The notes beneath the pieces were generated by a model. That model saw nothing but the letters and a program-made list of their open reading frames with translations, ran no database searches and was not told where the DNA came from. From positions 1,838,527-1,902,526 of the forward strand of contig NZ_KB900539.1 in NCBI RefSeq assembly GCF_000378945.1: DNA of 64,000 nucleotides, written 5' to 3'. Position 1 is the stretch's first letter. Each line of letters begins with the position of its first letter. Shown here one piece after another: positions 37,771 to 53,406 of this stretch. This DNA is from Methyloversatilis universalis EHg5. Lineage in GTDB: Bacteria > Pseudomonadota > Gammaproteobacteria > Burkholderiales > Rhodocyclaceae. The position numbers and the translations under genes are program-made.

Positions 37771-40179
37771 TCAGGCTGCTGCCTCCGCCGGTGCGGCGTC
37801 TGCAGGCGACACCCTTGCCGGGTGTTCCTGCAGGAAGGCCTCGATTTCTGCCGCGGGCATCGGTCGGGCGATCAGATAGCCCTGCAGTTCGTCGCAATCC
37901 AGGTCCTTCAGCAATGCGGCCTGGCTGCGTGTTTCGACCCCTTCCGCCACCACCTGCATCTGCAGGCTGCGCCCCATGGACGCGACCGCCCGCACGATGG
38001 ACGCGTTCTGTGAATCGGCTTCGAGGTCGGTCACGAATGAGCGATCGATCTTGATCTTGTCGAACGGGAAGCTCTGCAGATAGCTCAGCGAGGAGTAGCC
38101 GGTGCCGAAATCGTCCATCGCGATGCGTATGCCCATTTCCTTGAGTGCGGTGAGGGTGCGCAGCACCTCGTCGCGGTTGTCGATCAGCAGCGATTCGGTC
38201 ACTTCCAGCTCCAGGCGCTCGCCCGGCAATCCGCTTTCGGTCAGTGCCCGCTGCACCATGTCGACCAGCCCGCGGCGACGGAACTGCACCGCCGACAGAT
38301 TGACCGCCACGCTCAGCGGCTGTGACCAGCTGGCCGCCTCCATGCAGGCGCGACGCAGCACGAACTCGCCGATCGGCAGGATGAGGCCGGTTTCCTCCGC
38401 GACGGGGATGAAGTCCGCGGGCGAGATGTAGCCCAGTTCCGCATCGTTCCAGCGCACCAGCGCTTCGAACGCGACCGGATGTCCGTCACGGCTGCCCACC
38501 AGCGGCTGGAAGGCGATCTCCAGCGTTTCCGAGGTGATGGCGTGACGCAGCCGGAACTCGAGTCGACGGCGGGATTCGAGTGCGGCATCCATCTGTGCCT
38601 CGAAGAACCGGCAGGTGGCCTTGCCGTCAGCTTTGGCGCGATACATCGCGGTATCGGCGTTGCGCAGCAGGTCTTCGGTGGTGGCGCCATCGTCCGGGTA
38701 GAGTGCCACGCCGATCGAGGCGCTGATTGCGACTTCGGCGTCTGCCAGCCGGATCGGCGTCTGCAGGGTTTCGAGCAGGCGTTCCGCCAGCGCCATGGCC
38801 TGACGCGGCTGGGTGGTGAAGCTCTGCAGGATGGCGAACTCGTCACCTCCGAAGCGGGCCACCACATCGGCGTCCCGCAGTTCGCTCTGAATGCGTCGTG
38901 CCACCGTGCGCAGCAGTTCGTCGCCGGCGGCATGGCCATGCATGTCGTTGACCGTCTTGAAGCCGTCGAGATCGATGGCGAGGATGCCGAAACGCTCGTT
39001 GGTGCGCTGCGCATGGCCCATGGCCTTGTTTGCCAGTTCAAGAAACAGCCGGCGATTGGGCAGGTCGGTCAAGGGGTCGTGCAGGGCGAGGTGCGCGATG
39101 CGGGCCTCGGATTTCTTTCGTGTAGTCAGATCCCGGATGGCCAGCAGTTCGCCCTGCAGTCCGTCTGCCAGCTTGATGTGGCGCCGTGATACCTCAGCCG
39201 GAAAGTACGCGCCCTGGGCATTGAGCAGCGAGAGCTCGAAAGCGCGTTCGTCGTCGATCGGTTCCTTCATCCGCGCGATGCCTGCGGCGTCCAGGAGCGT
39301 ATCCAGGCGTGTGGCGGCGGCCACCGGTCCGTTCAGCCCGAACATGGCACGCGCGGCCGCGTTCGCGTCGACGATCAGGCCGTCACGGTGCACCAGCAGA
39401 CCTTCAAGCGCTCCGTCGGCCAGCGTGCGGAAACGTTCGGCTTCGCTGGCCAGCCGGCTGGCGATGCGCTGGTCGACAATGGCTGCGGTAATGCCGATCA
39501 GCAGAACCACCAGTGCGGCCACGGTCACCGCGATTGCCAGTGCGCTGCGTGACATGCCGGCAGCGTCCGCGGCCAGCGGGCTGAGTTCCAGGCGTACCGC
39601 ACCCATGCCCGTGAAATGAAGGGTGACCGTCATGGCCACGAACAGCGCGGCGGCGAGCGTGCGCGCGTGCGCATCCGCCAGACGCCGTCCGACCCACATC
39701 GATGAGATGCCGAGGGCGATGCTCAGCAGCACCGAGATGATCACCAGATCGACGTCGTAGCTCAGGTGGCCCGGAAAGCGCAGTGCGGCCATTCCCGCAT
39801 AGTGCAGGGCGGCGACGCCGCTGCCGAGCAGCACTCCACCGGCGATTGCGCCACGGGCGCGCCGCTGCCCGCCATGAGCCACTCGTACGCTGAAGCCGAT
39901 GATGAAGACGCCGATGAGATAGGACAGAAGCGTGAGCCCCGGGTCGTAGCTCATCGGGAGCGTGGTCCGGAAGGCCAGCATGGCGAGAAAGTGCGTCGCC
40001 CAGACGGTCGATCCTGCGTTGATCGCCAGCAGCGCTATCCAGGCGCCGGCCCGCCCGCTGGAGGCGATGCGTGTTGCCACCAGCGAACTCGCAGCAGCGC
40101 CGAAGGCACAGATGATGGCGGCCAGCACGACCAGATAGGGGTCGTGATCAACGGTGATGCAGTCGAGAACTCGGTACAT
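37771..40179 (-). CDS. MHYT-PAS-GGDEF-EAL c-di-GMP turnover protein
   Basis: An 802-residue inner-membrane protein. Residues about 1-235 are an MHYT sensor with seven membrane segments and conserved Met-His pairs such as WATHFLAMLAF and ALHYAGMAAL, which may bind copper or a gas ligand. A PAS domain (about 245-350), a GGDEF domain with FGGDEFAIL, and an EAL domain with FEALVRW, DDFGTGYSS and EGVE follow. Both catalytic sets look intact, so it could make and degrade c-di-GMP. The IS5 element lies 186 bases upstream of its start, possibly separating it from its native promoter. Confidence 0.93.
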   Translation of the reverse strand: MYRVLDCITVDHDPYLVVLAAIICAFGAAASSLVATRIASSGRAGAWIALLAINAGSTVWATHFLAMLAFRTTLPMSYDPGLTLLSYLIGVFIIGFSVRVAHGGQRRARGAIAGGVLLGSGVAALHYAGMAALRFPGHLSYDVDLVIISVLLSIALGISSMWVGRRLADAHARTLAAALFVAMTVTLHFTGMGAVRLELSPLAADAAGMSRSALAIAVTVAALVVLLIGITAAIVDQRIASRLASEAERFRTLADGALEGLLVHRDGLIVDANAAARAMFGLNGPVAAATRLDTLLDAAGIARMKEPIDDERAFELSLLNAQGAYFPAEVSRRHIKLADGLQGELLAIRDLTTRKKSEARIAHLALHDPLTDLPNRRLFLELANKAMGHAQRTNERFGILAIDLDGFKTVNDMHGHAAGDELLRTVARRIQSELRDADVVARFGGDEFAILQSFTTQPRQAMALAERLLETLQTPIRLADAEVAISASIGVALYPDDGATTEDLLRNADTAMYRAKADGKATCRFFEAQMDAALESRRRLEFRLRHAITSETLEIAFQPLVGSRDGHPVAFEALVRWNDAELGYISPADFIPVAEETGLILPIGEFVLRRACMEAASWSQPLSVAVNLSAVQFRRRGLVDMVQRALTESGLPGERLELEVTESLLIDNRDEVLRTLTALKEMGIRIAMDDFGTGYSSLSYLQSFPFDKIKIDRSFVTDLEADSQNASIVRAVASMGRSLQMQVVAEGVETRSQAALLKDLDCDELQGYLIARPMPAAEIEAFLQEHPARVSPADAAPAEAAA

Positions 40180-40364
40180 CGGGCAGAACTCCGGGGCGCG
40201 TACATCGGGGTGTTCCGATCACGCGCCGATCAAGTGGGGCAGGTCGGGTCGGAGTGACTATCGACCCGGCCGTCCCGGGCTTGAATGCAAAGTCATGCGT
40301 GCAGTACGGCCGATGCCAAATCGGACACGGTCCATCCTGTTCGGGGCGGTGCGTGCGGCCCTAG

Positions 40365-41575
40365 GGAAACACTGATTTAACCCCGTCCCCGTAGAATGCC
40401 CCGGTCATCCCGATAGGCGCAACCATCCAGATGAAACAGCAAACCAGCTTCGCCGATCTCGAGTACTCGGCGCGTCGCAAGCCGACGCGGCGGGAGAAGT
40501 TTCTGACCGACCTGGATCGTCTGGTGCCGTGGTCGCAGCTGGTGGCATTGATCGAGCCGCACTACTACCGCGGCGAGCGCGGTCGTCCGCCGGTCGGGCT
40601 GGAAACGATGCTGCGCATGTATCTGTGCCAGAACTGCCTGGGCCTGTCGGACGAAGGAATTGAAGATGCCATCGTCGACAGCATCGCGGTGCGTCGCTTC
40701 GTGGGCATCGACCTGATCGAGCGTCAGGCACCCGATGCCACCACGCTGCTGAAATTTCGCCGCCTGCTCGAACGTCACGAGATGCCGGTGCGCATCTTCG
40801 CGCTGATCCGCGAACAGCTCGGTCAGCAAGGGCTGATCCTGCGCGAAGGCACGATCGTCGACGCCACCTTGATCGCTGCGCCCCCCTCGACGAAGAACAA
40901 GGAGGGCGAGCGCGACCCCGACATGCACCAGACGAAGAAGGGCAAGCAGTGGTATTTCGGCATGAAAGCGCATATCGGTACGGATGCGCACACCGGCATC
41001 GTTCATTCGCTTGCCGCCACGGCGGCGAACGCGTCCGACGTGAGCCAGACGCACAAGCTGCTGCATGGTGAGGAGAAGCACGTGCATGCCGACGCTGGTT
41101 ACCAGGGTGCAGGCAAGCGTCCCGAACTGAAGGACTGCCCGGCCGAATTCGTGATCGCACGCCGGCGTTCGACTTACAAGAGGCTGGACAAGACGGACCC
41201 GAGACGCCAACTCATCGAGAAGGCGGAGCACGCCAAGGCGAGCATCCGCTCGAAGGTCGAGCACGCATTCCATGTGGTGAAGAACCTGTTCCGGCATCGC
41301 AAGTGCCGCTACAAGGGTTTGGCGAAGAACACGGCGCAGTTGCATGTGCTGTTCGCGATGGCGAATCTGGTGCTGTCGCAGAGAAGTCTGTGCGCGCCCT
41401 ACAGGACAGGTGCGTCCTGAGGGCGAGAAATCGGAGCGATGAGCTCCGAAAGGGCCTCGGGTCGATGATTCGGGGCTGAAAAAGAGCCGAAATTCGATGT
41501 CATGACGATGCGAATTTCGGAGTTGCTGCCTCACGGACGAAAAATCCCGGAAGGGTGGCTTTGATCAGCGTTTCC
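40365..41575 (+). mobile_element. IS5-type insertion sequence, 1211 bp
   Basis: One complete element with near-perfect inverted ends (GGAAACACTGATTT left; GGAAACGCTGATCA on the right reverse strand). It is flanked by identical CTAG target duplications at 40361-40364 and 41576-41579. The only gene is the transposase at 40431-41420. It lies between the MHYT protein gene and the sulfate-binding gene, and disrupts no recognised gene. Confidence 0.92.
40431..41420 (+). CDS. IS5-family transposase
   Basis: A 329-residue DDE transposase. ATIVDATLIAAPPSTKNK supplies the first Asp, HADAGYQGAGKRPEL the second and the C-terminal KVEHAFHVVKNLF the Glu. The N-terminal domain contains RGRPPVGLETMLRMYLCQ, as in IS5-group transposases. 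It appears intact and therefore may be active. Confidence 0.93.
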   Translation: MKQQTSFADLEYSARRKPTRREKFLTDLDRLVPWSQLVALIEPHYYRGERGRPPVGLETMLRMYLCQNCLGLSDEGIEDAIVDSIAVRRFVGIDLIERQAPDATTLLKFRRLLERHEMPVRIFALIREQLGQQGLILREGTIVDATLIAAPPSTKNKEGERDPDMHQTKKGKQWYFGMKAHIGTDAHTGIVHSLAATAANASDVSQTHKLLHGEEKHVHADAGYQGAGKRPELKDCPAEFVIARRRSTYKRLDKTDPRRQLIEKAEHAKASIRSKVEHAFHVVKNLFRHRKCRYKGLAKNTAQLHVLFAMANLVLSQRSLCAPYRTGAS

Positions 41576-41646
41576 CTAGGCGTGCCCGGACGTGTCCGCT
41601 TGCCGAGGCGTGCGTGGCGGGAACCCTGCCCGCCACGCCGGCCCGC

Positions 41647-42654
41647 TCAGCGCACGCTGATCTGGTCGAACACGCCGCCGTCGGCGAAGTGGGCCTTCTG
41701 GGCCTTCTGCCATCCGCCGAACTCGGCGTCGATGGTGAAGAGTTTCACCGGGGCGAAGGTCTTGGCGTACTTGGCGGCGACCTTGGGGTCGATCGGGCGG
41801 TAGTAGTTCTGGGCCGCGATTTCCTGGCCTTCCGGGCTGTACAGGTATTCCAGGTAGGCGGTGGCCACGGCGCGGGTGCCGCGCTTGTCGACCACTTTGT
41901 CGACCACGCTGACCGGCGGTTCGGCCAGGATGGACAGCGAGGGGGTGACGATTTCGAACTTGTCCGGGCCCAGCTCCTTCACCGCCAGATAGGCCTCGTT
42001 CTCCCAGGCGATGAGCACATCACCGATGCCGCGCTCGACGAAGGTGGTGGTCGAACCGCGGGCGCCGGAATCGAGCACCTTCACGTTGGCGAACAGCTTT
42101 TTCACGAACTCCTTCGCGGTGGCGTCCGAGCCGCCCGGCTGCTTGGCCGCGTAGGCCCAGGCGGCGAGGTAGTTCCAGCGGGCGCCGCCCGAGGTCTTGG
42201 GGTTGGGGGTGATGACCTCGATGCCCGGCTTGACCAGATCGTTCCAGTCCTTCAGGTGCTTGGGGTTGCCCTTGCGCACCAGGAACACGATGGTGGAGGT
42301 GTAGGGAGAGGCGTTGTGGGGCAGGCGCTTCTGCCAGTCGGCGGGGATGAGCTTGCCGTTGTCGTGCAGGGCATCGACGTCGTAGGCCAGCGCGAGGGTG
42401 ACCACGTCGGCTTCGAGGCCGTCGATGACCGAGCGGGCCTGTTTGCCGGAGCCGCCGTGGGACTGCTTGATGGTGACGTTGTCGCCGGACTTGGCCTTCC
42501 AGTGCTTGGCGAAGGCGGCGTTGAAGTCCTGATAGAGCTCGCGGGTCGGGTCGTAGGACACGTTGAGCAGGGTGATGTCGGCGGCCAGGGCGCTGCCGGC
42601 GAGAGCGGTGCCGAGCAGCAGGCTGGCGGCGAGGGTACGCAGGGCGGTTTTCAT
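41647..42654 (-). CDS. sbp: Sulfate-binding periplasmic protein
   Basis: A 335-residue solute-binding protein with a signal peptide ([13 protein letters not shown], cut before ADITLLN). [19 protein letters not shown] and [14 protein letters not shown] match Sbp/CysP; the Ser-Gly-Lys loop is typical of the ligand site. It should deliver sulfate or thiosulfate to CysT-CysW-CysA, which are encoded 8 kb away. The shared operator-like motif lies at 42730-42747, 76 bases upstream. A close paralogue is at 48128. Confidence 0.93.
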
Positions 42655-42729
42655 GGTGGGGCTCCGTGTGCGGGTCAGTCGATGCGATGGATTGCACTGT
42701 AGGGAGCCGCCCGGGCGATGCGAACCAAG

Positions 42730-42747
42730 AAGAAATGCGTTGCTTAG
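42730..42747 (-). promoter_or_regulatory. Candidate CysB-type operator upstream of sbp
   Basis: Plus-strand AAGAAA-N5-TGCTTAG, the same arrangement and spacing as at 33685 and 49198. It lies between the HD-hydrolase stop and the sbp start, suggesting sbp has its own promoter. Confidence 0.5.
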
Positions 42748-42766
42748 ATCATTGTCTTTGCAGAGC

Positions 42767-43360
42767 TTATTCCGCCGGTGAATATGCGGTGCGCGCTGCC
42801 GCCACGGGTGCTTCGGTCAGTGCCGCGAAGCCCCTGCGCACCGCGGCGTGGAAGCGCGCTTCCAGTTCCGCATGGCTGCCGCGCATCGCCGCCACCACCT
42901 CGCCCGACCACGACAGATAGCGCACGCGCCGCTCCAGCGGCCAGTCCTGCGGCGGGCTGTCGATCACGTCGCGCACGTTGGCGATCTTGTCGGCCAGCCG
43001 TACCAGACGCGCCGGCGGGCTGTAGTCGCGCGCCAGCAGCACCTGCATCGCCTTGCGCTCCGGTTTGGGCAAGGTCATGTCGTCGCTCAGTTCGACGACG
43101 ATGGCGGCGACCCGCGGGCCGAAATGTCGCTGCAGCTCCGCTTCGCTGGTGTCGGTGTCTTCCAGCGTGTCGTGCAGCAGTGCGGCCATCAGTGTTTCGG
43201 TGTCCTGCACGCCGCCTTCGCTGGCCAGGATGGTGGCGACCGCGATCGGGTGATGGATGTAGGGCGCCCGGTCTGCGCTCTTGCGGGTCTGGCCCTGGTG
43301 CTTCTGCGCGGCGAAGGACAGCGCCTCCAGCAGCGCCGCGGACGCGAACGGCGGCGTCAT
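42767..43360 (-). CDS. MESH1/SpoT-like HD-domain hydrolase
   Basis: A 197-residue stand-alone HD phosphohydrolase of the RelA/SpoT hydrolase fold. The metal-binding residues are visible: His in FAAQKHQGQ and YIHHPIAVA, the HD pair in LLHDTLEDT, and the late Asp in [10 protein letters not shown]. There is no synthetase, TGS or ACT domain, so it resembles MESH1, which removes a 3'-pyrophosphate from ppGpp or a 2'-phosphate from NADPH. It is the third gene of the fusion operon, overlapping the sulfotransferase gene by four bases. In this context the substrate might instead be 3'-phosphoadenosine 5'-phosphate (PAP), the by-product of sulfotransfer; that is an inference. Confidence 0.85.
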
Positions 43361-44337
43361 GCGGCCGCTCCGCGCGTGTCGGGGGCGTAGCCCATGTCGG
43401 CCGCGATCCGCTGCAGCGAAGGCAGCACCCGTTCGATCTTCCCGGCGTGCGCGTGCTGGCGCCACTTCTCCAGTCTGATCTCGAACATCGGGTCATAGGG
43501 CTTGTCGAGCAGTGAGGCGGCGTGGGCGCGGATGCGGGCGTCGAAGGGCAGCTCAAGTCGGTCGAAGATGTCGAACAGCCCGTCGGTCGGGTTGCGAACG
43601 ATGTCTTCGTAGAACACCTCTATCCATTGGTCCGGTGCGATCGCGGCCTTCGCGTTCAGGATGTCGCGGTGGATGGCTTCGTACTGGAAGGCGCATACCT
43701 CTTCGACCGGCGCTTTCAGATAGTCGCGCCAGCCGCGTGGCAGGTAGTGGCACCAGCGGGTCAGGCGGCCGCCGTCCACCTCGACCTGCGCCGGCAGTTC
43801 GCGCGCCCAGTTGCCGAAGCGCTCAGGCCGGTGCCAGCCCTCGATCATCGAATTGAGCGTGTCGCCCGGATTGCGCTTGATGTAGACGAAGGTGGCGTCC
43901 GGAAACAGCGCGTGCAGATAGGGCACCGCCAGACCGTGCTGGTTGTTCTTGTCGACGAAGCGGGTACGGCCGGTATGCGCGTAGAAGTAGCGGGTGATCA
44001 GGTCGCGGTCGCTGTCGCGGGCGTCGGTGGCGTCCAGCACATGGCTGTCCCAGTCCTTGTGTGCCGGGTGGTGCAGGCGGTCCCACACCGCGTAGATTTC
44101 CCGGTTCAGCGAGCCGATGGCCGACGATTCGGTCAGCGTCTTGTACAGCATCTGGGTGCCCGAGCGGCTGCCGCTCACCACGAATACCGGCCGCTCTGCG
44201 CGCAGCCGGGTGCGGTCCCACCAGGCGCCGCGCAGGTCGGTGAGCGTTTTCTTCGCGTGGTGACGGACGGTCTTGTCCACCTTGAACCAGAACTGGGCCA
44301 CGGCGTTCTGTCCCATTGCGGTGTCTCCGGCGCTCAT
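43357..44337 (-). CDS. PAPS-dependent sulfotransferase family protein
   Basis: A 326-residue cytosolic sulfotransferase. The 5'-phosphosulfate-binding loop VVSGSRSGTQMLYKTL and the 3'-phosphate-binding strand VYIKRNPGDTLNSMIEGWH are clear, and a catalytic-type His/Asn lies in FVDKNNQHG. Sulfotransferases transfer sulfate from PAPS to an alcohol or amine, leaving PAP. The acceptor is unknown; a polysaccharide or small metabolite is possible. It is coupled by ATGA overlaps to the pyruvate kinase-ATP sulfurylase gene upstream and the HD hydrolase downstream. Confidence 0.88.
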   Translation of the reverse strand: MSAGDTAMGQNAVAQFWFKVDKTVRHHAKKTLTDLRGAWWDRTRLRAERPVFVVSGSRSGTQMLYKTLTESSAIGSLNREIYAVWDRLHHPAHKDWDSHVLDATDARDSDRDLITRYFYAHTGRTRFVDKNNQHGLAVPYLHALFPDATFVYIKRNPGDTLNSMIEGWHRPERFGNWARELPAQVEVDGGRLTRWCHYLPRGWRDYLKAPVEEVCAFQYEAIHRDILNAKAAIAPDQWIEVFYEDIVRNPTDGLFDIFDRLELPFDARIRAHAASLLDKPYDPMFEIRLEKWRQHAHAGKIERVLPSLQRIAADMGYAPDTRGAAA

Positions 44338-46526
44338 GCGTGGAACAGCGGCTGGCCCGCCTTCAGTTCGGCGCTGATCATGTCCTGCACGATGCCGCGC
44401 ACATACCAGTCGGGCAGCGGCTCACCGCGCAGCAGCGAATCGCGTACCCGGGTGCCGCTGATTGCCTGCGCATCGTCGTGCAGGCCGCTTTCGTAGGCGC
44501 CGGTGGTCGGGTTGTAGCCGATGGCGTCGAAGAACACCGGCGTGATGCCGGTGTCGCCCAGTTCGTCGAACAGTGCGCGGTAGCTGCGGTCGTCGTAGAA
44601 ATCGCCGACGCCGGCGTGGTTGCGGCCGACGATGAAATGGCTGCAGCCGATGTTCTTGCGGCAGATCGCGTTGAACACCGCTTCGCGCGGACCGGCGTAG
44701 CGCGGGTAGGTGGCCAGTGCGCCCAGCAGCACCTTGCCGGCCGGGTACAGGCCGAAGTCGATCAGCATCTGGTAGCTGCGCAGGATGGGGCGCGGCAGGA
44801 AGTCGCCCGGCTTCTTCGGGCCGATCACCGGATTGATGAACAGGCCGTCGGCATTGGTGCGCTCCAGCGCCTGCAGCTGCAGGTGTTCATGCCCGCGATG
44901 GCTGATGTTGCGGCCGTGGAAAGCCACCACCTTGCTCCAGCCCTTGTGCGCGAAGATGAAACGGCTCTGCCGCGGGGTGAGTTCGAATTCGCGCCAGGGT
45001 GAAGGCCGCTCCTCGATCAGCGTGATGGCACCGGCGACGAAGTGATCGCCGTTGCGGTGCAAGCGGGCCACCCCCGGGTGCTCGGTGGAGGCGGTGCCGA
45101 AAGCCAGGCGGCCGATTTCGTCCAGATCGTGGCGATACACCTCGCTCACGTCGATCACCGCATGGGCGTGGCCGGCGTCGTCGGTCAGCACCCGGCGCTG
45201 CCCGGCGGCCAGCGTGCGGGCGCGTTCGGCGTCCACCTGCAGCAGCACCGGCACGGTCCAGGCCGCACCGTCCGGCAGCCGCTTGCGATGCAGCACGCTG
45301 GTCAGCGTTTCGCGGTCCATGAAGCCGGTCAGCGGCGAGAAGGTGCCGACGCCGATCTGGTGGGCGTCCAGCAGGTCGGTGTCGCGCACGGTCAGTCGCG
45401 GCAGCGTGTCGAGGTCGGCGATGGCCGAAGCCGGACTCACCCGGCTCACCAGCGCGCCGCCGTGCGGCTCGATCAGCAGCGAGGTCGGGTCGGTCGGCAC
45501 ATAGGCCAGACCTTCGTGATGCGGCGCCGGGGTGCGCGCATTGAGCACGCGGAATTCGCGGATGAGCTTCACGATCATGGCGACGCAACCCACCGGGTCC
45601 TTGCCGATCGCGGTTTCGGCTGCCAGCACCAGACCGTCGGCGCCGTCGAGCAGGGTGTTGATCACGTCATTCACTTCGGCCCGGGTCGGTCGCGGCGCGG
45701 TGATCATCGACTCCAGCAGGTTGGTGGCGACATACACCTTGCGCCGGTGCGCCTGGCCGCGCGCGATGATGAGCTTCTGCAGCGCCGGGATGCGCTCGAT
45801 CGGCTCCTGCCGCGACAGGTCGCCGCGGTCGATCAGCAGCGCGTCCGACTTTTCGGAAATCTCGTCCAGATTGATCAGGCCGTTGCGGCACTCGATCTTG
45901 GAAATGAGGAAGGTGTCGTCGCCGACCAGCGCCCGCACCTGATCAACATCGCTGCCGCGATTGGCGAAGGACAGCGCCACGTGGCGGATGCCGACCGAGC
46001 GGCCGTATTCCAGCGCGGCGACGTCCTTGGCGGTCAGCGTGTCGAGGGCGATGTCGCGTTCCACGGTGACCGCCTTGTTCTGACCGATCACGCCGCCGTG
46101 CAGCACCCGCATCGCCACCTCGGTGTCGTCGCGCGAAATCACCTGCACCAGCACCGAATTGAAATCGATGCTGATGAAGTCACCGACCTCCAGCTTGTCG
46201 ATCACGTCGTCCGGATAGAGATTGAAGTTGAACGCATCGCCCGGCACGCGCAGCTTGTGCGCATGCACGATGCTGTTCTCGCGTACCGCGATTTCGCCAT
46301 TCAGCATGTCGCCGGTGCGGATCTGCGCGCCTTCGGTGTCGAGGCAGATCGGCACCGCGCTGCGGCTGCGGATGTAGTCGATCACGCGCGGCAGATCCTG
46401 CAGCTTGGTGTGCGACAGGTTGATGCGGAAAAGATTGACGCCCAGTTCCTCCAGCCGCGCGAGCACGCGGTCGTTCAGTGAGGCGGGGCCGAGGGTGCAG
46501 AGGATTTCCTTGTCGGGTGCGGTCAT
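44334..46526 (-). CDS. Pyruvate kinase-like / ATP sulfurylase fusion protein
   Basis: A 730-residue fusion. Residues 1-330 are a pyruvate kinase barrel: EILCTLGPASLNDRVLARL, FRINLSHT (R34, N36, S38), DTEGAQIRTG (D63), a B domain at about 72-157, the catalytic Lys210 and metal Glu212 in ISKIECRNG, Asp236 in DRGDLS and Thr268 in VATNLLESM. The usual C-terminal regulatory domain is missing. Residues 345-730 are a Sat-type ATP sulfurylase, with GTFSPLTGFM, HRGH at 543-546, the HGRN segment at 537-540, RYAGPREAVF, GRNHAGVGDF and SGTRVRDSLL. It should make APS from sulfate and ATP, while the kinase part could regenerate ATP from PEP. The start at 46526 gives the first conserved residues; no better start lies upstream. 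It leads the operon with a sulfotransferase and HD hydrolase and follows a sigma-54 promoter at 46630-46644. Confidence 0.92.
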   Translation of the reverse strand: MTAPDKEILCTLGPASLNDRVLARLEELGVNLFRINLSHTKLQDLPRVIDYIRSRSAVPICLDTEGAQIRTGDMLNGEIAVRENSIVHAHKLRVPGDAFNFNLYPDDVIDKLEVGDFISIDFNSVLVQVISRDDTEVAMRVLHGGVIGQNKAVTVERDIALDTLTAKDVAALEYGRSVGIRHVALSFANRGSDVDQVRALVGDDTFLISKIECRNGLINLDEISEKSDALLIDRGDLSRQEPIERIPALQKLIIARGQAHRRKVYVATNLLESMITAPRPTRAEVNDVINTLLDGADGLVLAAETAIGKDPVGCVAMIVKLIREFRVLNARTPAPHHEGLAYVPTDPTSLLIEPHGGALVSRVSPASAIADLDTLPRLTVRDTDLLDAHQIGVGTFSPLTGFMDRETLTSVLHRKRLPDGAAWTVPVLLQVDAERARTLAAGQRRVLTDDAGHAHAVIDVSEVYRHDLDEIGRLAFGTASTEHPGVARLHRNGDHFVAGAITLIEERPSPWREFELTPRQSRFIFAHKGWSKVVAFHGRNISHRGHEHLQLQALERTNADGLFINPVIGPKKPGDFLPRPILRSYQMLIDFGLYPAGKVLLGALATYPRYAGPREAVFNAICRKNIGCSHFIVGRNHAGVGDFYDDRSYRALFDELGDTGITPVFFDAIGYNPTTGAYESGLHDDAQAISGTRVRDSLLRGEPLPDWYVRGIVQDMISAELKAGQPLFHA

Positions 46527-46629
46527 GGTGTCGTGTCCTGTCGTGATCGGTCGGTGCGCCACGGATGCCGGATGAATGCCGCCCGGAGATCCGGTCGCAT
46601 CGGGCAGGCGCGCCATTGCGGGGGGTGTC

Positions 46630-46644
46630 GCAAGAGGTGTGCCA
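46630..46644 (-). promoter_or_regulatory. Sigma-54 (-24/-12) promoter of the fusion operon
   Basis: On the minus strand TGGCACACCTCTTGC fits TGGCAC-N5-TTGC with exact spacing. It points at the fusion start 104 bases downstream, and a sigma-54 activator gene lies directly upstream. Confidence 0.85.
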
Positions 46645-46715
46645 CGCGCAGGACATGAAGATTTCGTGACGCAGTCGTCACTTTCCGGATGGAGGTGTGA
46701 CCGATGCACGGAATG

Positions 46716-46742
46716 CCTGTGGCCGTCGCCACAGGGCTGTGG
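46716..46742. promoter_or_regulatory. Candidate activator-binding dyad upstream of the sigma-54 promoter
   Basis: A perfect CCTGTGGC/GCCACAGG dyad with four-base spacer is followed at once by a third CTGTGG half-site. It lies about 72 bases beyond the sigma-54 -24 element, a normal distance for an enhancer-like site. Confidence 0.55.
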
Positions 46743-47002
46743 GCGACGCTGCGCGAATCGGCACACCGCCTGCTGTTTCGTGAGCAATGCCATATGAGTG
46801 GAAGAGGCGAAGCCCGGATCGCGCAAGCGGCGTCTGCGCGCAGGGTGGGTTGCCTCGCACGCGCTGTCGGGCGCCCGTCTGCGCGCAACGACTCGATGCG
46901 CGCAGCGGTGCGCGGACATGGCGGTCAGCGCCTGCATGCAGGCCAGGAATGGGCAGAAGGTGAAAGGGAATGCGCTGTGCGTGGCTGCACAGCGCGGGCG
47001 CG

Positions 47003-48088
<1,086 letters not shown>

Positions 48089-48127
48089 GGCGGCAGCCGG
48101 ACGCGCAGGGCGTCCGGCTCGGTCGGA

Positions 48128-49135
48128 TCAGCGGCGGGTGACGATCTGGTCGTACAGCGCGCCGTCGGCGAAATGGGCTTTCTGCACCGCATCCCAGCCG
48201 CCCAGCCTGCCTTCCACCGTGAAGGTGCGGATGGCCGGGAACTGCGCAGCGTACTTCTTCAGCACGGCTTCGTTGCGCGGGCGGAAATGGTGCTTCGCGA
48301 TGATGTCCTGGCCTTCCGGCGAGAACAGGTACTGCAGATAGGCTTCCGCCTGCTTGCGGGTACCGCGCTTGTCCACCACCTTGTCCACCAGCGACACCGG
48401 TGCGGCTGCTTCGACCGACAGCGACGGATAGACGATGTCGAACTGGTCACCGCCGACTTCCTTGTCCAGCAGCACCGCCTCGTTCTCGAAGGTGATGAGC
48501 ACGTCGCCGATGCCGCGCTGGGTGAAGGTGGTGGTGGCGCCGCGGCCGCCGCCATCCAGCACCGGCACGTTGGCGAACAGCTTGCTCACGAAGTCCTTCG
48601 CGGCGGCTGCGTCGTCGTTGTGCTTCGACAGGGCGTAGCCCCAGGCGGCGACATAGGTGTAGCGGCCGTTGCCCGAAGTTTTCGGGTTGGGCACGATGAC
48701 CTGCAGGCCCGGCCGCACCAGGTCGGACCAGTCCTTGATCGCCTTCGGGTTGCCCTTGCGCACCAGGAACACCGTGGTCGTGGTGTAGGGCGCGGCGTCG
48801 TTCGGCAGGCGCTTGCGCCAGTCCGGCGACACCAGATTGTTCTTCACCAGGATGTCGATGTCCGGCGACTGGTTCATCGTGATCACGTCCGCTTCCAGAC
48901 CACCGATCACCGCACCGGCCTGCTTGCTCGAGCCGCCGTGCGACTGGTTCAGCGTCAGCGTCTCGCCGGTCTTGCCCTTCCACTGCGCGATGAACGCCGG
49001 GTTGATGTCCTTGTACAGCTCGCGCGCGACGTCGTAGCTCACGTTGAGCAGCGTGGTGTCGGCGTGCGCCGGCAGGGCGGCGGTCAGCAGCGACAGGAGG
49101 GCGGCCGATATCAGGGTTCTGCGACGGATGGACAT
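48128..49135 (-). CDS. sbp: Sulfate-binding periplasmic protein (second copy)
   Basis: A 335-residue Sbp paralogue of the protein at 41647. It has a signal peptide (LLSLLTAALPAHA, cut before DTTLLN), [19 protein letters not shown] and LNQSHGGSSKQAGAV, so the ligand-site Lys is SK rather than GK. The difference may change affinity or specificity, e.g. thiosulfate. CTTTCCGGAGTCC before the ATG at 49135 carries a GGAG ribosome-binding site. It likely forms an operon with the sigma-54 activator gene. Confidence 0.93.
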   Translation of the reverse strand: MSIRRRTLISAALLSLLTAALPAHADTTLLNVSYDVARELYKDINPAFIAQWKGKTGETLTLNQSHGGSSKQAGAVIGGLEADVITMNQSPDIDILVKNNLVSPDWRKRLPNDAAPYTTTTVFLVRKGNPKAIKDWSDLVRPGLQVIVPNPKTSGNGRYTYVAAWGYALSKHNDDAAAAKDFVSKLFANVPVLDGGGRGATTTFTQRGIGDVLITFENEAVLLDKEVGGDQFDIVYPSLSVEAAAPVSLVDKVVDKRGTRKQAEAYLQYLFSPEGQDIIAKHHFRPRNEAVLKKYAAQFPAIRTFTVEGRLGGWDAVQKAHFADGALYDQIVTRR

Positions 49136-49197
49136 GAGGACTCCGGAAAGGGGTGAGCGATGCAGCTTAGGCGCGAGTGCTGAGCGCGTGAAGTAAC

Positions 49198-49215
49198 AAG
49201 AAACGATGTACTTAT
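49198..49215 (-). promoter_or_regulatory. Candidate CysB-type operator upstream of the second sbp
   Basis: Plus-strand AAGAAA-N5-TACTTAT, 63 bases upstream of the sbp start. It matches the sites at 33685 and 42730 in sequence and in five-base spacing. Confidence 0.5.
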
Positions 49216-50039
49216 TACTCTTCTGAATAAGCAAGCCGGTCGGCGGTGATCACGGCCGGCTGCGGCCGACCCAGCGCGTGGCCCTGGGCCAGGGCCACGC
49301 CGGCGTCGCGCAGCCGTGGCGTCAGCCCGTCCTGCCCGACCCGCTTCACGATGAGCTGAATGCCATGGCGGGCGCACAGATCGGCATGGCGGCCGATATC
49401 GCGCAGCGTGTCGTCGCGGCCGCCGTCCAGTTTCACGAAATCCGGCCGCACGTGACGTACCAGTTCGCCGATCTGTTCGCCGCGCGCCAGATTCACGCCC
49501 ACCCGGTAACCGTTGTAGCGGTAGTTCAGCAGCACGTAGGCGAGCAGCGAGAAATCGCTGCTCATCGCCTCCGGCGACTCGATCACGATGCGGCGGCGCT
49601 CGATGTCCAGCGCCGACAGCACCCGGCCGAAGGCGCTGCCGTGGTCTTCGCCCACCGCCAGCATGAGCCGGCCGTGCACGTTCAGGAACAGGCTGGCGTC
49701 GTTGTCGGCGCTGCCGAAGTAGTTCAGCACGTGCAGCGTGCGGCACAGCCGGTCCAGTTCGATCAGCGCTTCATCGCTGGCAGCGTTGGCAAACAGGTTC
49801 CAGGGCGACAGGTCGCCGCCGGTTTCGTCGAAGGAGCGGATGAAAGCTTCGTGGCCGATGCCGCGTCCGGTTTCGAGATCGATCAGGGGCTGGAATACCG
49901 ACGACAGGCTGCTGCGCAGGAAGCGGCCGGCCACCCGGCTTTCGGGTGTGATCCATACCGCCTGCGCACCGTCGGCGGTGCGCGGCAGCGCGTGCAGATA
50001 GCGTTCGAGTGCAGACGGGGCGGTCGCGACCGTGTTCAT
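49215..50039 (-). CDS. Degenerate EAL-domain protein
   Basis: A 274-residue soluble protein with the EAL fold but broken catalysis. HEAFIR keeps the first Glu, FLNVHGR and IVIESPEAM keep other ligands, but the DDFG loop is replaced by VNLARG and the EGVE motif by VKRVGQ. It is therefore unlikely to cleave c-di-GMP and may instead bind it or a protein partner. It lies between the sbp-activator pair and the rhodanese/encapsulin block, so a sulfur-control role is possible but not shown. Confidence 0.8.
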   Translation of the reverse strand: MNTVATAPSALERYLHALPRTADGAQAVWITPESRVAGRFLRSSLSSVFQPLIDLETGRGIGHEAFIRSFDETGGDLSPWNLFANAASDEALIELDRLCRTLHVLNYFGSADNDASLFLNVHGRLMLAVGEDHGSAFGRVLSALDIERRRIVIESPEAMSSDFSLLAYVLLNYRYNGYRVGVNLARGEQIGELVRHVRPDFVKLDGGRDDTLRDIGRHADLCARHGIQLIVKRVGQDGLTPRLRDAGVALAQGHALGRPQPAVITADRLAYSEE

Positions 50040-50073
50040 GGTGTCCTCCGCAGGGTGCTGACGGCGTCCGCCG

Positions 50074-50259
50074 TCATTCGATCAGGATGTAGGTGCTGTA
50101 CAGCAGTGCGATGCCCAGGCTGAACACGATTGCGGCCAGCACCTTGTCGACCAGCGGAATGGGCTGAGCGGGCAGGGCCGGTTCCGGCGGCGATTCGATT
50201 CGTCGCGGCGTGTCCTTGCCCTCGGCATGACCGGGGCGTGAAAGATCCGGGCTGTTCAT
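50074..50259 (-). CDS. Small single-pass membrane protein
   Basis: A 61-residue protein with a Pro-rich polar N-terminus and one C-terminal membrane segment (VLAAIVFSLGIALLYSTYIL). No family is recognised. There is no convincing ribosome-binding site, so support is limited to the clean hydrophobic helix and its position directly upstream of the degenerate EAL gene on the same strand. Confidence 0.5.
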   Translation of the reverse strand: MNSPDLSRPGHAEGKDTPRRIESPPEPALPAQPIPLVDKVLAAIVFSLGIALLYSTYILIE

Positions 50260-50523
50260 GGGCCGACTGTAGTGCGCCTGCCAGGCCCGCCCAACCAATC
50301 AATTCTGCTGAGCTTATGCAGCGCCGCTTAGCGGAAATCCTGCAGTGCTTTTCATGGATTGGATCTGAAATTCAATTGGTTTGAGTGCGGGGTGGCGGCC
50401 GATAGATTGGCGTCACCGCAGCGGCTGCCGACGCAGCGACGCGGTGCCGGTCCGGCGTGGCGCGATGAGGTGCTCTTCCTCCGCAGGCCCCGGGCCGCGA
50501 TGTCCTGTCGAGGAGGAATGAAA

Positions 50524-51018
50524 ATGACTGCAGCAATCCAGGGCGCAACGGCGTCCGCAACCCGCCCGGCGGTGCTCGACGCGCCGCCGCTGTCCATCGC
50601 CCGTGAGCGGGCCGAACACGACGCGCTGCTCTACGCCGGTGGCGTCACGCCGGAACAGGCCTGGGCGCTGGTGAGCGCCGGCGACGCGGTGCTGGTCGAT
50701 GTGCGCACCGCGGAAGAACGCAAGTTCGTCGGCCATGTGCCGGGCAGCGTGCACGTGGCCTGGGCCACCGGCACCTCGATGACCCGCAACCCGCGCTTCG
50801 TGAAGGAACTGGAAACCCGCGTCGGCAAGGACGTGGTCATCCTGCTGCTGTGCCGCAGCGGCAAGCGTTCCGCGGCCGCGGCCGAAGCGGCGGCCAAGGC
50901 CGGATTCCGCCATGTGTTCAATGTGCTCGAAGGTTTCGAGGGCGAACTGAATGCCGACGGCCAGCGCCGCAACAGTGGCGGCTGGGTAGTGCGCAGCCTG
51001 CCCTGGCAGCAGGACTGA
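50524..51018 (+). CDS. Rhodanese-domain sulfurtransferase
   Basis: A 164-residue single-domain rhodanese. The active-site loop is LLLCRSGKRSA with the catalytic Cys; VLVDVRTAEERKFVGHVPGS is the conserved N-terminal part. Rhodaneses move sulfane sulfur as an enzyme persulfide. AGGAGG seven bases before the ATG at 50524 supports this start over the ATG at 50518. It leads the plus-strand sulfur block followed by serine acetyltransferase and the encapsulin pair. Confidence 0.9.
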   Translation: MTAAIQGATASATRPAVLDAPPLSIARERAEHDALLYAGGVTPEQAWALVSAGDAVLVDVRTAEERKFVGHVPGSVHVAWATGTSMTRNPRFVKELETRVGKDVVILLLCRSGKRSAAAAEAAAKAGFRHVFNVLEGFEGELNADGQRRNSGGWVVRSLPWQQD

Positions 51019-51076
51019 AGGTCTCGCGGCGGCCGCCGGGCGGCTGCCTTCAATCACCCGGCAACGGAGATCCCGC

Positions 51077-52045
51077 ATGACGCTCAAGAAAGGCGGCCTC
51101 ACAAGGGCGGTCGAATCCGAAGGTTCCTGGCAGCTCGATCGCATCGTGACCGAGCTGCGCGACATCCGTGCGCGCTGGCGTGGCGCGCAGCAGCGCCAGA
51201 CCGAATGCGGCGCGCGCGAATTCCCATCGCGCGACGCGCTGCGCGACATTGCCGAGGCGCTGTGCGCCGCGCTGTTCCCGATGCGGCTGGGTCCGTCCGA
51301 CCTGCATCAGGAGAGCGAGGATTTTTTCATCGGCTACACGCTGGACGCCGCGCTCAACGGCCTGCTGCATCAGGTCAGGCTGGAACTGCGCTACGACGCC
51401 CGCCGCGCGAATACGCCGCAGACCGAGGTCGATGCGCTGGCGCGCACCATCGTCGCCGAATTCGCGCTGGCGCTGCCGGCACTGCGCGCGCTGCTCGATA
51501 CCGACGTGCTGGCCGCCTACCAGGGCGACCCGGCCGCGCGCAGCGTGGACGAAGTGCTGCTGTGCTACCCGGGCGTGATCGCGGTCATCCATCACCGCAT
51601 TGCGCACCGGCTGTATGCGCTGGGCGCGCCGCTGGTGGCCCGCATCATCGCCGAAGCCGCGCATTCGGACACCGGCATCGACATCCATCCGGGCGCGCAG
51701 ATCGGCGCCGGCTTCTTCATCGACCACGGCACCGGTGTGGTGATCGGCGAAACCGCGGTGATCGGCGAACGGGTGCGGCTGTACCAGGCGGTCACGCTCG
51801 GCGCCAAGCGCTTTCCGGCCGACGAGGAAGGCACGCTGCAGAAGGGTTTGCCGCGGCACCCGCTGGTCGAGGACGACGTGGTCATCTACGCCGGCGCCAC
51901 CATTCTGGGCCGGGTCACGATAGGGCGCGGTTCGACCATAGGCGGCAATGTGTGGCTCACCCGCAGCGTACCGGCCGGCAGCCATATCACCCAGGCCAGT
52001 TCCCAGCACACCAGCGTGCTGCCTGCCGAGCTGGCGGCGTCATGA
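51077..52045 (+). CDS. epsC: Serine O-acetyltransferase, EpsC/SrpH type
   Basis: A 322-residue left-handed beta-helix acyltransferase. DIHPGAQIGAGFFIDHGTGVVIGE contains the CysE-family catalytic His in the first turns (here kept to the core IDHGTGVVIGE), then GNVWLTRSVPAGS. It makes O-acetylserine for cysteine synthesis, which feeds the cysteine desulfurase downstream. It is the subtype found beside family 2A encapsulins. It overlaps the XRE gene by four bases. Confidence 0.9.
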   Translation: MTLKKGGLTRAVESEGSWQLDRIVTELRDIRARWRGAQQRQTECGAREFPSRDALRDIAEALCAALFPMRLGPSDLHQESEDFFIGYTLDAALNGLLHQVRLELRYDARRANTPQTEVDALARTIVAEFALALPALRALLDTDVLAAYQGDPAARSVDEVLLCYPGVIAVIHHRIAHRLYALGAPLVARIIAEAAHSDTGIDIHPGAQIGAGFFIDHGTGVVIGETAVIGERVRLYQAVTLGAKRFPADEEGTLQKGLPRHPLVEDDVVIYAGATILGRVTIGRGSTIGGNVWLTRSVPAGSHITQASSQHTSVLPAELAAS

Positions 52046-52362
52046 GCCCGCGTCCGGTCGTACTGCCGCCGGCGGTGGCGGACGCGCTCACCCGCCGCTT
52101 CGGCCGCGCGGTGCGCGAGGTGCGCGAAGCCCGCGGCTGGTCACAGGAAGCGCTGGCCGAGCGCGCAGAGCTGAACCGCTCCTATCTCGGTGAAGTGGAA
52201 CGTGGCGGTGCCATGCCCTCGCTGGCCACCGTGGCCAAGCTCGCTTTTGCGCTCGATCTGCCCACCTCTCATCTGCTGGCCCGCTGCGAAGCGGGCAGTG
52301 CGCTGCTGGCCGAACCCGGCCGCGCTGCCGGCTGGCCGGCGGCGGAGCAGGCGTCCGCATGA
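52042..52362 (+). CDS. XRE-family HTH transcriptional regulator
   Basis: A 106-residue regulator with one Cro/C1-type HTH (VREARGWSQEALAERAEL and SYLGEVERG) and a short C-terminus. It probably controls the encapsulin genes downstream, from which it is separated by 114 bases holding an AT-rich operator-like stretch. It is translationally coupled to the serine acetyltransferase gene. Confidence 0.9.
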   Translation: MSPRPVVLPPAVADALTRRFGRAVREVREARGWSQEALAERAELNRSYLGEVERGGAMPSLATVAKLAFALDLPTSHLLARCEAGSALLAEPGRAAGWPAAEQASA

Positions 52363-52411
52363 AGCACGCGCAGCCGGCATTGATGGCTATAGCCGGTTGA
52401 TCGGCGCTTAG

Positions 52412-52432
52412 AAGAAACAGATATTTGCTTAG
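52412..52432. promoter_or_regulatory. Operator-like AT-rich site before the encapsulin gene
   Basis: AAGAAA-N8-TGCTTAG, similar to the sulfur-uptake motifs but with an eight-base spacer and in the opposite orientation to its gene. CTTAG also occurs at 52407-52411. It lies 45-65 bases before the encapsulin start. Confidence 0.35.
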
Positions 52433-52476
52433 CAATTTTTCGCATAACCAGAATCCATCCCCTCAAGGAGCCTCAC

Positions 52477-53406
52477 ATGGCCGATACCCCCGAACAGCTG
52501 GCACTTGGCGACAACGCCGCCCGCCAGCTTGCCAATGCCACCAAGACCGTCCCGCAGCTGTCCACCATCACGCCGCGCTGGCTGGTGCACCTGCTGCAGT
52601 GGCTGCCGGTCGAGGCCGGCATCTACCGCGTGAACCGGGTGAAGAACCCGCAGGACGTGCGGGTTGCGTGCTCGCAGCGTGACGAAGCCGAACTGCCGCA
52701 GATTTTCGTCGACTACGACGAACAGCCGCGCGAGTACTTCCTGAACGCGGTCACCACGGTGCTCGACGTGCACACCCGCGTGTCCGACCTCTACAGCAGC
52801 CCGCACGACCAGATCAAGGAGCAGCTGCGCCTGACCATCGAAACGATCAAGGAGCGGCAGGAAAGCGAACTGATCAACAACCCGGAATACGGCCTGCTGG
52901 CCAATGTGCACGACGACCAGCGCATCTCCACGCTGACCGGCGCGCCGACCCCGGACGACATGGACGACCTGATCGGCAAGGTGTGGAAGGAGCCCGGCTT
53001 CTTCCTGACCCACCCGCTGGCGATCGCCGCTTTCGGCCGCGAATGCACCCGCCGCGGCGTGCCGCCGCCCACCGTGAGCCTGTTCGGTTCGCAGTTCCTG
53101 ACCTGGCGCGGCCTGCCGCTGATCCCGTCGGACAAGGTGCCGGTCGAGGACGGCAAGACCAAGATCATCCTGCTGCGCACCGGCGAAAAGCGTCAGGGCG
53201 TGGTCGGCCTGTTCCAGCCGGGCATTGCCGGCGAACAGAGCCCGGGCCTGTCGGTGCGCTTCATGGGCATCAACCGCAACGCGATCGCGTCCTACCTGAT
53301 TTCGCTGTATTGCTCCCTGGCCGTGCTGACCGAAGACGCGCTGGCTGTGCTCGATGACGTGGAGATCGGCAAGTACCATGAGTATCCCGACACCTACAAG
53401 CAGTAA
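52477..53406 (+). CDS. srpI: Family 2A encapsulin nanocompartment shell protein
   Basis: A 309-residue HK97-fold shell protein. The sequence matches SrpI-type family 2A encapsulins: PQLSTITPRWLVHLLQWLPVE near residue 30, YDEQPREYFLNAVTTVL and PTVSLFGSQFLTWRGLPL; the last part SVRFMGINRNAIASYLISLY is the axial domain. Family 2A shells package cysteine desulfurase and store sulfur. AAGGAG six bases before the ATG at 52477 supports the start. Its 3' end overlaps the cargo gene by 29 bases. Confidence 0.94.
   Translation: MADTPEQLALGDNAARQLANATKTVPQLSTITPRWLVHLLQWLPVEAGIYRVNRVKNPQDVRVACSQRDEAELPQIFVDYDEQPREYFLNAVTTVLDVHTRVSDLYSSPHDQIKEQLRLTIETIKERQESELINNPEYGLLANVHDDQRISTLTGAPTPDDMDDLIGKVWKEPGFFLTHPLAIAAFGRECTRRGVPPPTVSLFGSQFLTWRGLPLIPSDKVPVEDGKTKIILLRTGEKRQGVVGLFQPGIAGEQSPGLSVRFMGINRNAIASYLISLYCSLAVLTEDALAVLDDVEIGKYHEYPDTYKQ

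Follow-up and report, generated by a model that had tools for sequence, protein, structure and literature searches.

An IS5-family insertion sequence in Methyloversatilis universalis EHg5 lies between a sulfate-binding protein gene, sbp1, and a gene for a predicted c-di-GMP regulator, and its position raises two questions: whether the element arrived there recently, and whether it alters expression of the regulator gene. An earlier note on this DNA had judged the insertion recent and had suggested that it may alter expression. Here we examine both proposals in the window, by which we mean the whole stretch of DNA analysed (64 kb), and in genomes of the same genus and family.

Results

Anatomy of the element

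Features that characterize the IS5 family were found: a transposase, the R(3)E(6)K signature within a DDE region, terminal inverted repeats and a 4-bp target duplication (Table 1), a YTAR-type target with a 4-bp duplication being part of how the family is defined. CTAA is also named as an IS5 target (PMC2753651). The transposase scored 322.2 bits against the NCBIfam model transpos_IS5_4, for which the cut-off is 140, and matched DDE_Tnp_1 at 1e-33. Its DDE catalytic region contains RSKVEHAFHVVK at residue 273, aligned with RARVEHPFRIIK of InsH, and this is the R(3)E(6)K signature. A long minus-strand ORF opposite the transposase (40377-41534) was considered and set aside as a shadow ORF of a G+C-rich gene.

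The exact duplications claimed earlier are borne out, coordinates included. CTAG occurs seven times in the window, and two of these occurrences are the flanks of the element. The ends had also been called well matched, and 13 of their 16 positions are indeed equal (GGAAACACTGATTTAA / GGAAACGCTGATCAAA), but a match of that quality is not rare in the window: IS-like end pairs 1211 bp apart with at least 11 of 16 matches begin at 73 of 62,600 positions, and three of these, the element included, reach 13. Identical 4-mers stand on both sides in four of the 73, and only in the element is the 4-mer CTAG. By themselves, the terminal repeats are within chance expectation in the window; the element rises above chance through its transposase, through the scarcity of CTAG and through the presence of other copies in the genome.

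Table 1. Features at and around the insertion, in positions of the window.
Feature	Position	Strand	Basis
Gene for predicted c-di-GMP regulator (MHYT-PAS-GGDEF-EAL; 802 aa) with intact GGDEF and EAL motifs	37771-40179	-	domain search, motifs
IS-to-regulator spacer, where any proximal native promoter would lie	40180-40360	-	sigma-70-like matches of shuffle quality
Left target-site duplication, CTAG	40361-40364	.	sequence
IS5-family insertion sequence, complete, 1211 bp	40365-41575	+	sequence, profile match, genome copies
Left inverted repeat, 13/16 matches to right end	40365-40380	+	end comparison
Possible -10 (TAGAAT) of transposase promoter, poor -35	40392-40397	+	score reached by 219/300 shuffles
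Transposase of the IS5 family (329 aa) with intact R(3)E(6)K signature	40431-41420	+	ORF, profile match
Right inverted repeat	41560-41575	-	end comparison
Right target-site duplication, CTAG	41576-41579	.	sequence
Spacer between IS and sbp1 stop, G+C-rich hairpin	41580-41646	-	folding of 41576-41650
Gene for a sulfate-binding protein (sbp1 copy A), next upstream of regulator	41647-42654	-	domain/profile search

Copies in this and other genomes

Ten copies of the element, this one included, were found in the genome. Six of them, among which is the window copy, are identical over 1211 bp, and one more carries a single difference; by simple alignment the other three have diverged by 16, 22 (one of these an N) and 34 differences, the last being 1221 bp long with a broken frame. 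Because identical copies occupy six loci, the element is likely to be active in transposition.

Five of the copies lie within 50 kb (G000:C1:1127035-1176763; L215-L217), in a region where some ORFs, judged from their translations, presumably resemble metal-efflux genes and which may be an island of IS arrival. Two inverted IS pairs, their 5' ends facing inward and ∼1.1-1.2 kb apart, were also seen (G000:C1:1147144-1150798 and 790615-794164); in each pair one member (L007, L010) is without an exact 4-bp duplication, and the pairs are possible products of compound transposition or of rearrangement.

Outside this genome, some DNA match to the element was found in 72 of 249 family genomes (the count includes our own). 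Another species of the genus, G005, carries a full-length identical copy (1211/1211), which ends exactly at a contig end and whose sole readable flank is CTAG; a third, G008, carries a full-length copy at 84% identity. Because the IS is identical in G005 whereas the conserved genes compared reach only 81% (prc), 85% (sbp1) and 90% (another conserved gene) DNA identity with the window, its presence there would most simply reflect recent transfer between species, a reading that is well supported. The earlier description of the insertion as recent is thus well supported too, although by the identical copies elsewhere in the genome and in another species more than by the CTAG duplication on which it had drawn.

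The regulator gene

The name MHYT-GGDEF-EAL given earlier to the regulator is correct as far as it goes but omits the PAS domain that separates MHYT from GGDEF; the domain order and the intact GGDEF and EAL motifs, as predicted from sequence, are those of MHYT-PAS-GGDEF-EAL c-di-GMP enzymes. Orthologs were sought in 61 genomes, our own included, 13 of which were from the genus. In the 12 other genus genomes examined, neither protein searches nor DNA searches with the left flank and gene found one, and the best score in any of them was ∼432 bits as compared to 1713 for the protein against itself. The best non-self match by E-value was in G019 (37% identity over residues 15-789), and higher identities, up to 49% among the matches listed, cover the GGDEF-EAL part only. 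Of 249 family genomes, 46 matched the N-terminal 201 residues alone; among the matches listed, the top non-self one by E-value again had 37% identity, and another place in the same genome had 41%. Full-length relatives in named genomes, as seen in the best 80 of at least 594 matches, were mostly from Alphaproteobacteria, with ∼40-44% identity at the top ranks and values down to 33% below them.

In G005, G008, G003, G012, G002, G006 and G009, prc and sbp1 lie ∼0.2-4.4 kb apart without the regulator gene. A 964-codon open frame in G009 lies at the corresponding position immediately upstream of prc, on the same strand, and is 35% identical to window residues 269-526; as neither the MHYT nor the EAL part of the regulator found a match in it at E 1e-5, it was read as a different GGDEF gene and not as an ortholog. 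The regulator gene beside the IS looks accessory from these comparisons.

Search for an uninterrupted site

Neighbourhoods were compared in 13 genus genomes (our own among them) by means of the right flank with sbp1, the left flank with the regulator gene, and prc. The sbp1 gene was found in 12 of the 13 and its coding sequence aligns, but neither short flank aligns in the relatives' stretches compared, except for at most 16 bases beside the sbp1 stop in G006. No uninterrupted site for the window copy was found among the 12 other genus genomes: no ortholog of the regulator gene turned up in them, and conservation does not extend into either short flank. The same was tried for L005, a sibling copy. 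All 12 relatives conserve the gene on its left, but at the point of insertion the spacer showed no conservation in the 11 relatives compared.

The sbp1 gene has a history of its own. It is a recent duplicate: positions 41644-42745 and a second copy ∼94 kb away (G000:C1:1974622-1975722; L161) share 97.9% identity over 1102 bp, and this match ends near the sbp1 stop codon, leaving 64 bp before the IS. As the sbp1 genes of G001 and G010 are only ∼90% identical, as compared to 97.9% between the two copies here, sbp1 was probably copied, or converted, after the species split.

Farther along the window, positions 44334-46937 encode an 867-aa protein in which a pyruvate-kinase barrel is fused to PUA_2 and ATP-sulfurylase domains; it reaches the NCBIfam cut-off of neither parent enzyme, and its gene adjoins a sulfotransferase gene and is conserved in G001, G004, G007 and G010. 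The sulfur-linked stretch 47003-53406 encodes a sigma-54 activator in which no N-terminal sensor domain was recognised, a second sulfate-binding protein, an EAL protein and an SrpI-like shell protein of a type 2A encapsulin. Its gene order is the same in G001 and G010, and also in G007, where the EAL gene has no match.

Discussion

We consider it very probable that a complete, probably active IS5-family element recently transposed into a CTAG target between sbp1 and the regulator gene and that its effect there is small. The anatomy is that of an insertion into an intergenic CTAG with duplication of the 4-bp target, from which we infer the event itself; the window copy is one of a near-identical group in the genome, and the identity in G005 suggests that the same element has moved between species. 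The element points away from the regulator gene, with the transposase on the plus strand and the regulator on the minus strand, the two being divergent and the 5' (left) end of the IS lying nearest the regulator. The distance of 186 bases given earlier is correct as the coordinate difference between the regulator ATG at 40179 and the end of the IS, and it leaves 181 bp up to the duplicated CTAG. This much of its own upstream sequence should be enough for a native promoter. The insertion would have replaced the sequence beyond these 181 bp and separated the gene from sbp1 read-through, and activation by the mechanisms described for E. coli fucAO or glpFK would not be expected. Most likely, the IS at this site is near-neutral.

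A loss of expression is the first alternative to be weighed. Both sbp1 and the regulator gene are on the minus strand and would be ∼252 bp apart without the IS and one CTAG, so the IS might isolate the regulator from sbp1 transcription or from an upstream control site and thereby silence or weaken it. We think this unlikely, because the regulator keeps its 181 bp and because a G+C-rich hairpin follows sbp1. The stretch 41576-41650 folds at -37.9 kcal/mol (z -1.2) without a U tract, and 21 of 200 shuffles fold as well; termination at this hairpin is thus an unproven candidate, its stability not being significantly above that of the shuffles. Up to E 0.5, Rfam families were absent from 39900-43000.

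A gain of expression is the second alternative, and we regard it as rather improbable here. The IS5 copies at fucAO and flhDC have their transposase promoter on the side distal to the gene, and the copy at glpFK has its 3' end proximal to it, activation there involving a bend and an IHF site within that 3' end (PMC2753651); fucAO activation proceeds from a fusion promoter at the transposase start that reads through the IS (PMC11894529). This arrangement (promoter distal, IS 3' end proximal) is not the one in the window. On this comparison the window fits neither the fusion-promoter mechanism nor the one based on the 3' end, because the orientation is opposite to that at fucAO, flhDC and glpFK (PMC2753651), and the transposase promoter is directed away from the regulator gene. 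However, bgl is activated by IS5 in either orientation (PMC2753651), so that orientation alone does not speak against an effect, and one in either direction may be conceivable at this locus. An outward or fusion promoter at the left end of the IS, or relief of silencing as at bgl, could in principle raise expression of the regulator, the more so as the IS is only 181 bp upstream, and in Pseudomonas syringae a 1,210 bp IS5-family element drove a resistance gene from 62 bp upstream, its orientation not being stated in the section that describes it (PMC12858298).

The promoter analysis does not favor such a gain. The best gene-strand sigma-70-like match in the left end of the IS and the spacer was equalled in 98 of 300 shuffles, a separate gene-strand shuffle test of promoter-like matches gave a fraction of 0.488 of 500, and a strict promoter scan on the gene strand found none, although such scans are weak in G+C-rich genomes. 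A separate promoter between the IS and the gene, which the earlier note had named as the observation that would speak against altered expression, fares no differently, the best candidates in the 181-bp spacer being of shuffle quality. A candidate IHF-like site, the best at two mismatches, lies in the left end of the IS and was set aside. As judged from sequence, a regulatory effect of the IS on the regulator gene is a weak proposition without positive support. The open-licence literature that we searched, mainly as titles and the beginnings of abstracts and including PMC8919034, yielded no IS5 insertion upstream of a diguanylate cyclase or c-di-GMP gene.

Simple insertion can itself be questioned, since an empty site for the window copy was not found and since CTAG is palindromic and stands on both sides of three of the 10 copies (L001, L002, and L008), so that recombination between two CTAG-flanked IS copies, and not duplication, could leave matching flanks. 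Three other copies have no exact duplication (L007, CATA/CTTA; L009, CTAA/TAAA; L010, CTAG/CTAA), so the sequence around this IS does at times rearrange or decay, and the gene on one side of the window copy is one without an ortholog found in the genus genomes examined. Nevertheless, we hold recombination to be very unlikely as the source of the flanks, as exact 4-bp NTAR duplications of five different 4-mers accompany seven of the 10 copies (CTAG in three; TTAG, GTAG, ATAG, and TTAA in one each) and point to simple transposition as the common case. Least plausible of all is the proposal that the IS rewired a gas-sensing c-di-GMP regulator unique among the 13 genus genomes and was kept for a change in biofilm behaviour; it would act through the IS 5' end, in an orientation unlike that at fucAO, flhDC, and glpFK.

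With a recent transposition and a probably small effect, this is an ordinary IS copy, IS5 being a common bacterial family, and it carries little weight beyond adding a recently active element common to species and with close relatives on plasmids. Were c-di-GMP signalling found to be changed, the locus would join the known cases of rewiring by an IS, but the sequence gives no positive reason to expect so.

Those plasmid-borne relatives are IS5-family copies on pYS1 of Burkholderia cepacia (97.8% DNA identity) and on RW109 plasmid 1 of Pseudomonas aeruginosa (96.8%), both full length, 2-3% diverged from the window element and flanked by CTAG on both sides. The regulator resembles CdgB of Azospirillum baldaniorum, likewise MHYT-PAS-GGDEF-EAL (794 aa vs. 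802 aa here), in architecture: the two MHYT-like motifs of the window protein, at 125 and 187, stand at the positions of the second and third of CdgB, in which the GGDEF motif is written SGDEF (PMC9683572). CdgB is described as mainly a phosphodiesterase, capable of both activities (PMC9683572). In P. syringae an IS5-family element of similar size, 1,210 bp, has also spread recently, but there it reaches up to >100 copies as compared to the 10 found here, and an effect on expression was measured; the two are likened by size and spread alone (PMC12858298). The IS5 element of E. coli is close in length (1195 bp vs. 1211 bp) and shares R(3)E(6)K and the 4-bp target duplication, its transposase, InsH, being 48% identical to that in the window over 313 aligned positions, but its terminal repeat is GGAAGGTGCGAACAAG as compared to GGAAACACTGATTTAA here. 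E. coli IS5 targets YTAR, whereas the targets used in this genome include GTAG and ATAG besides YTAR.
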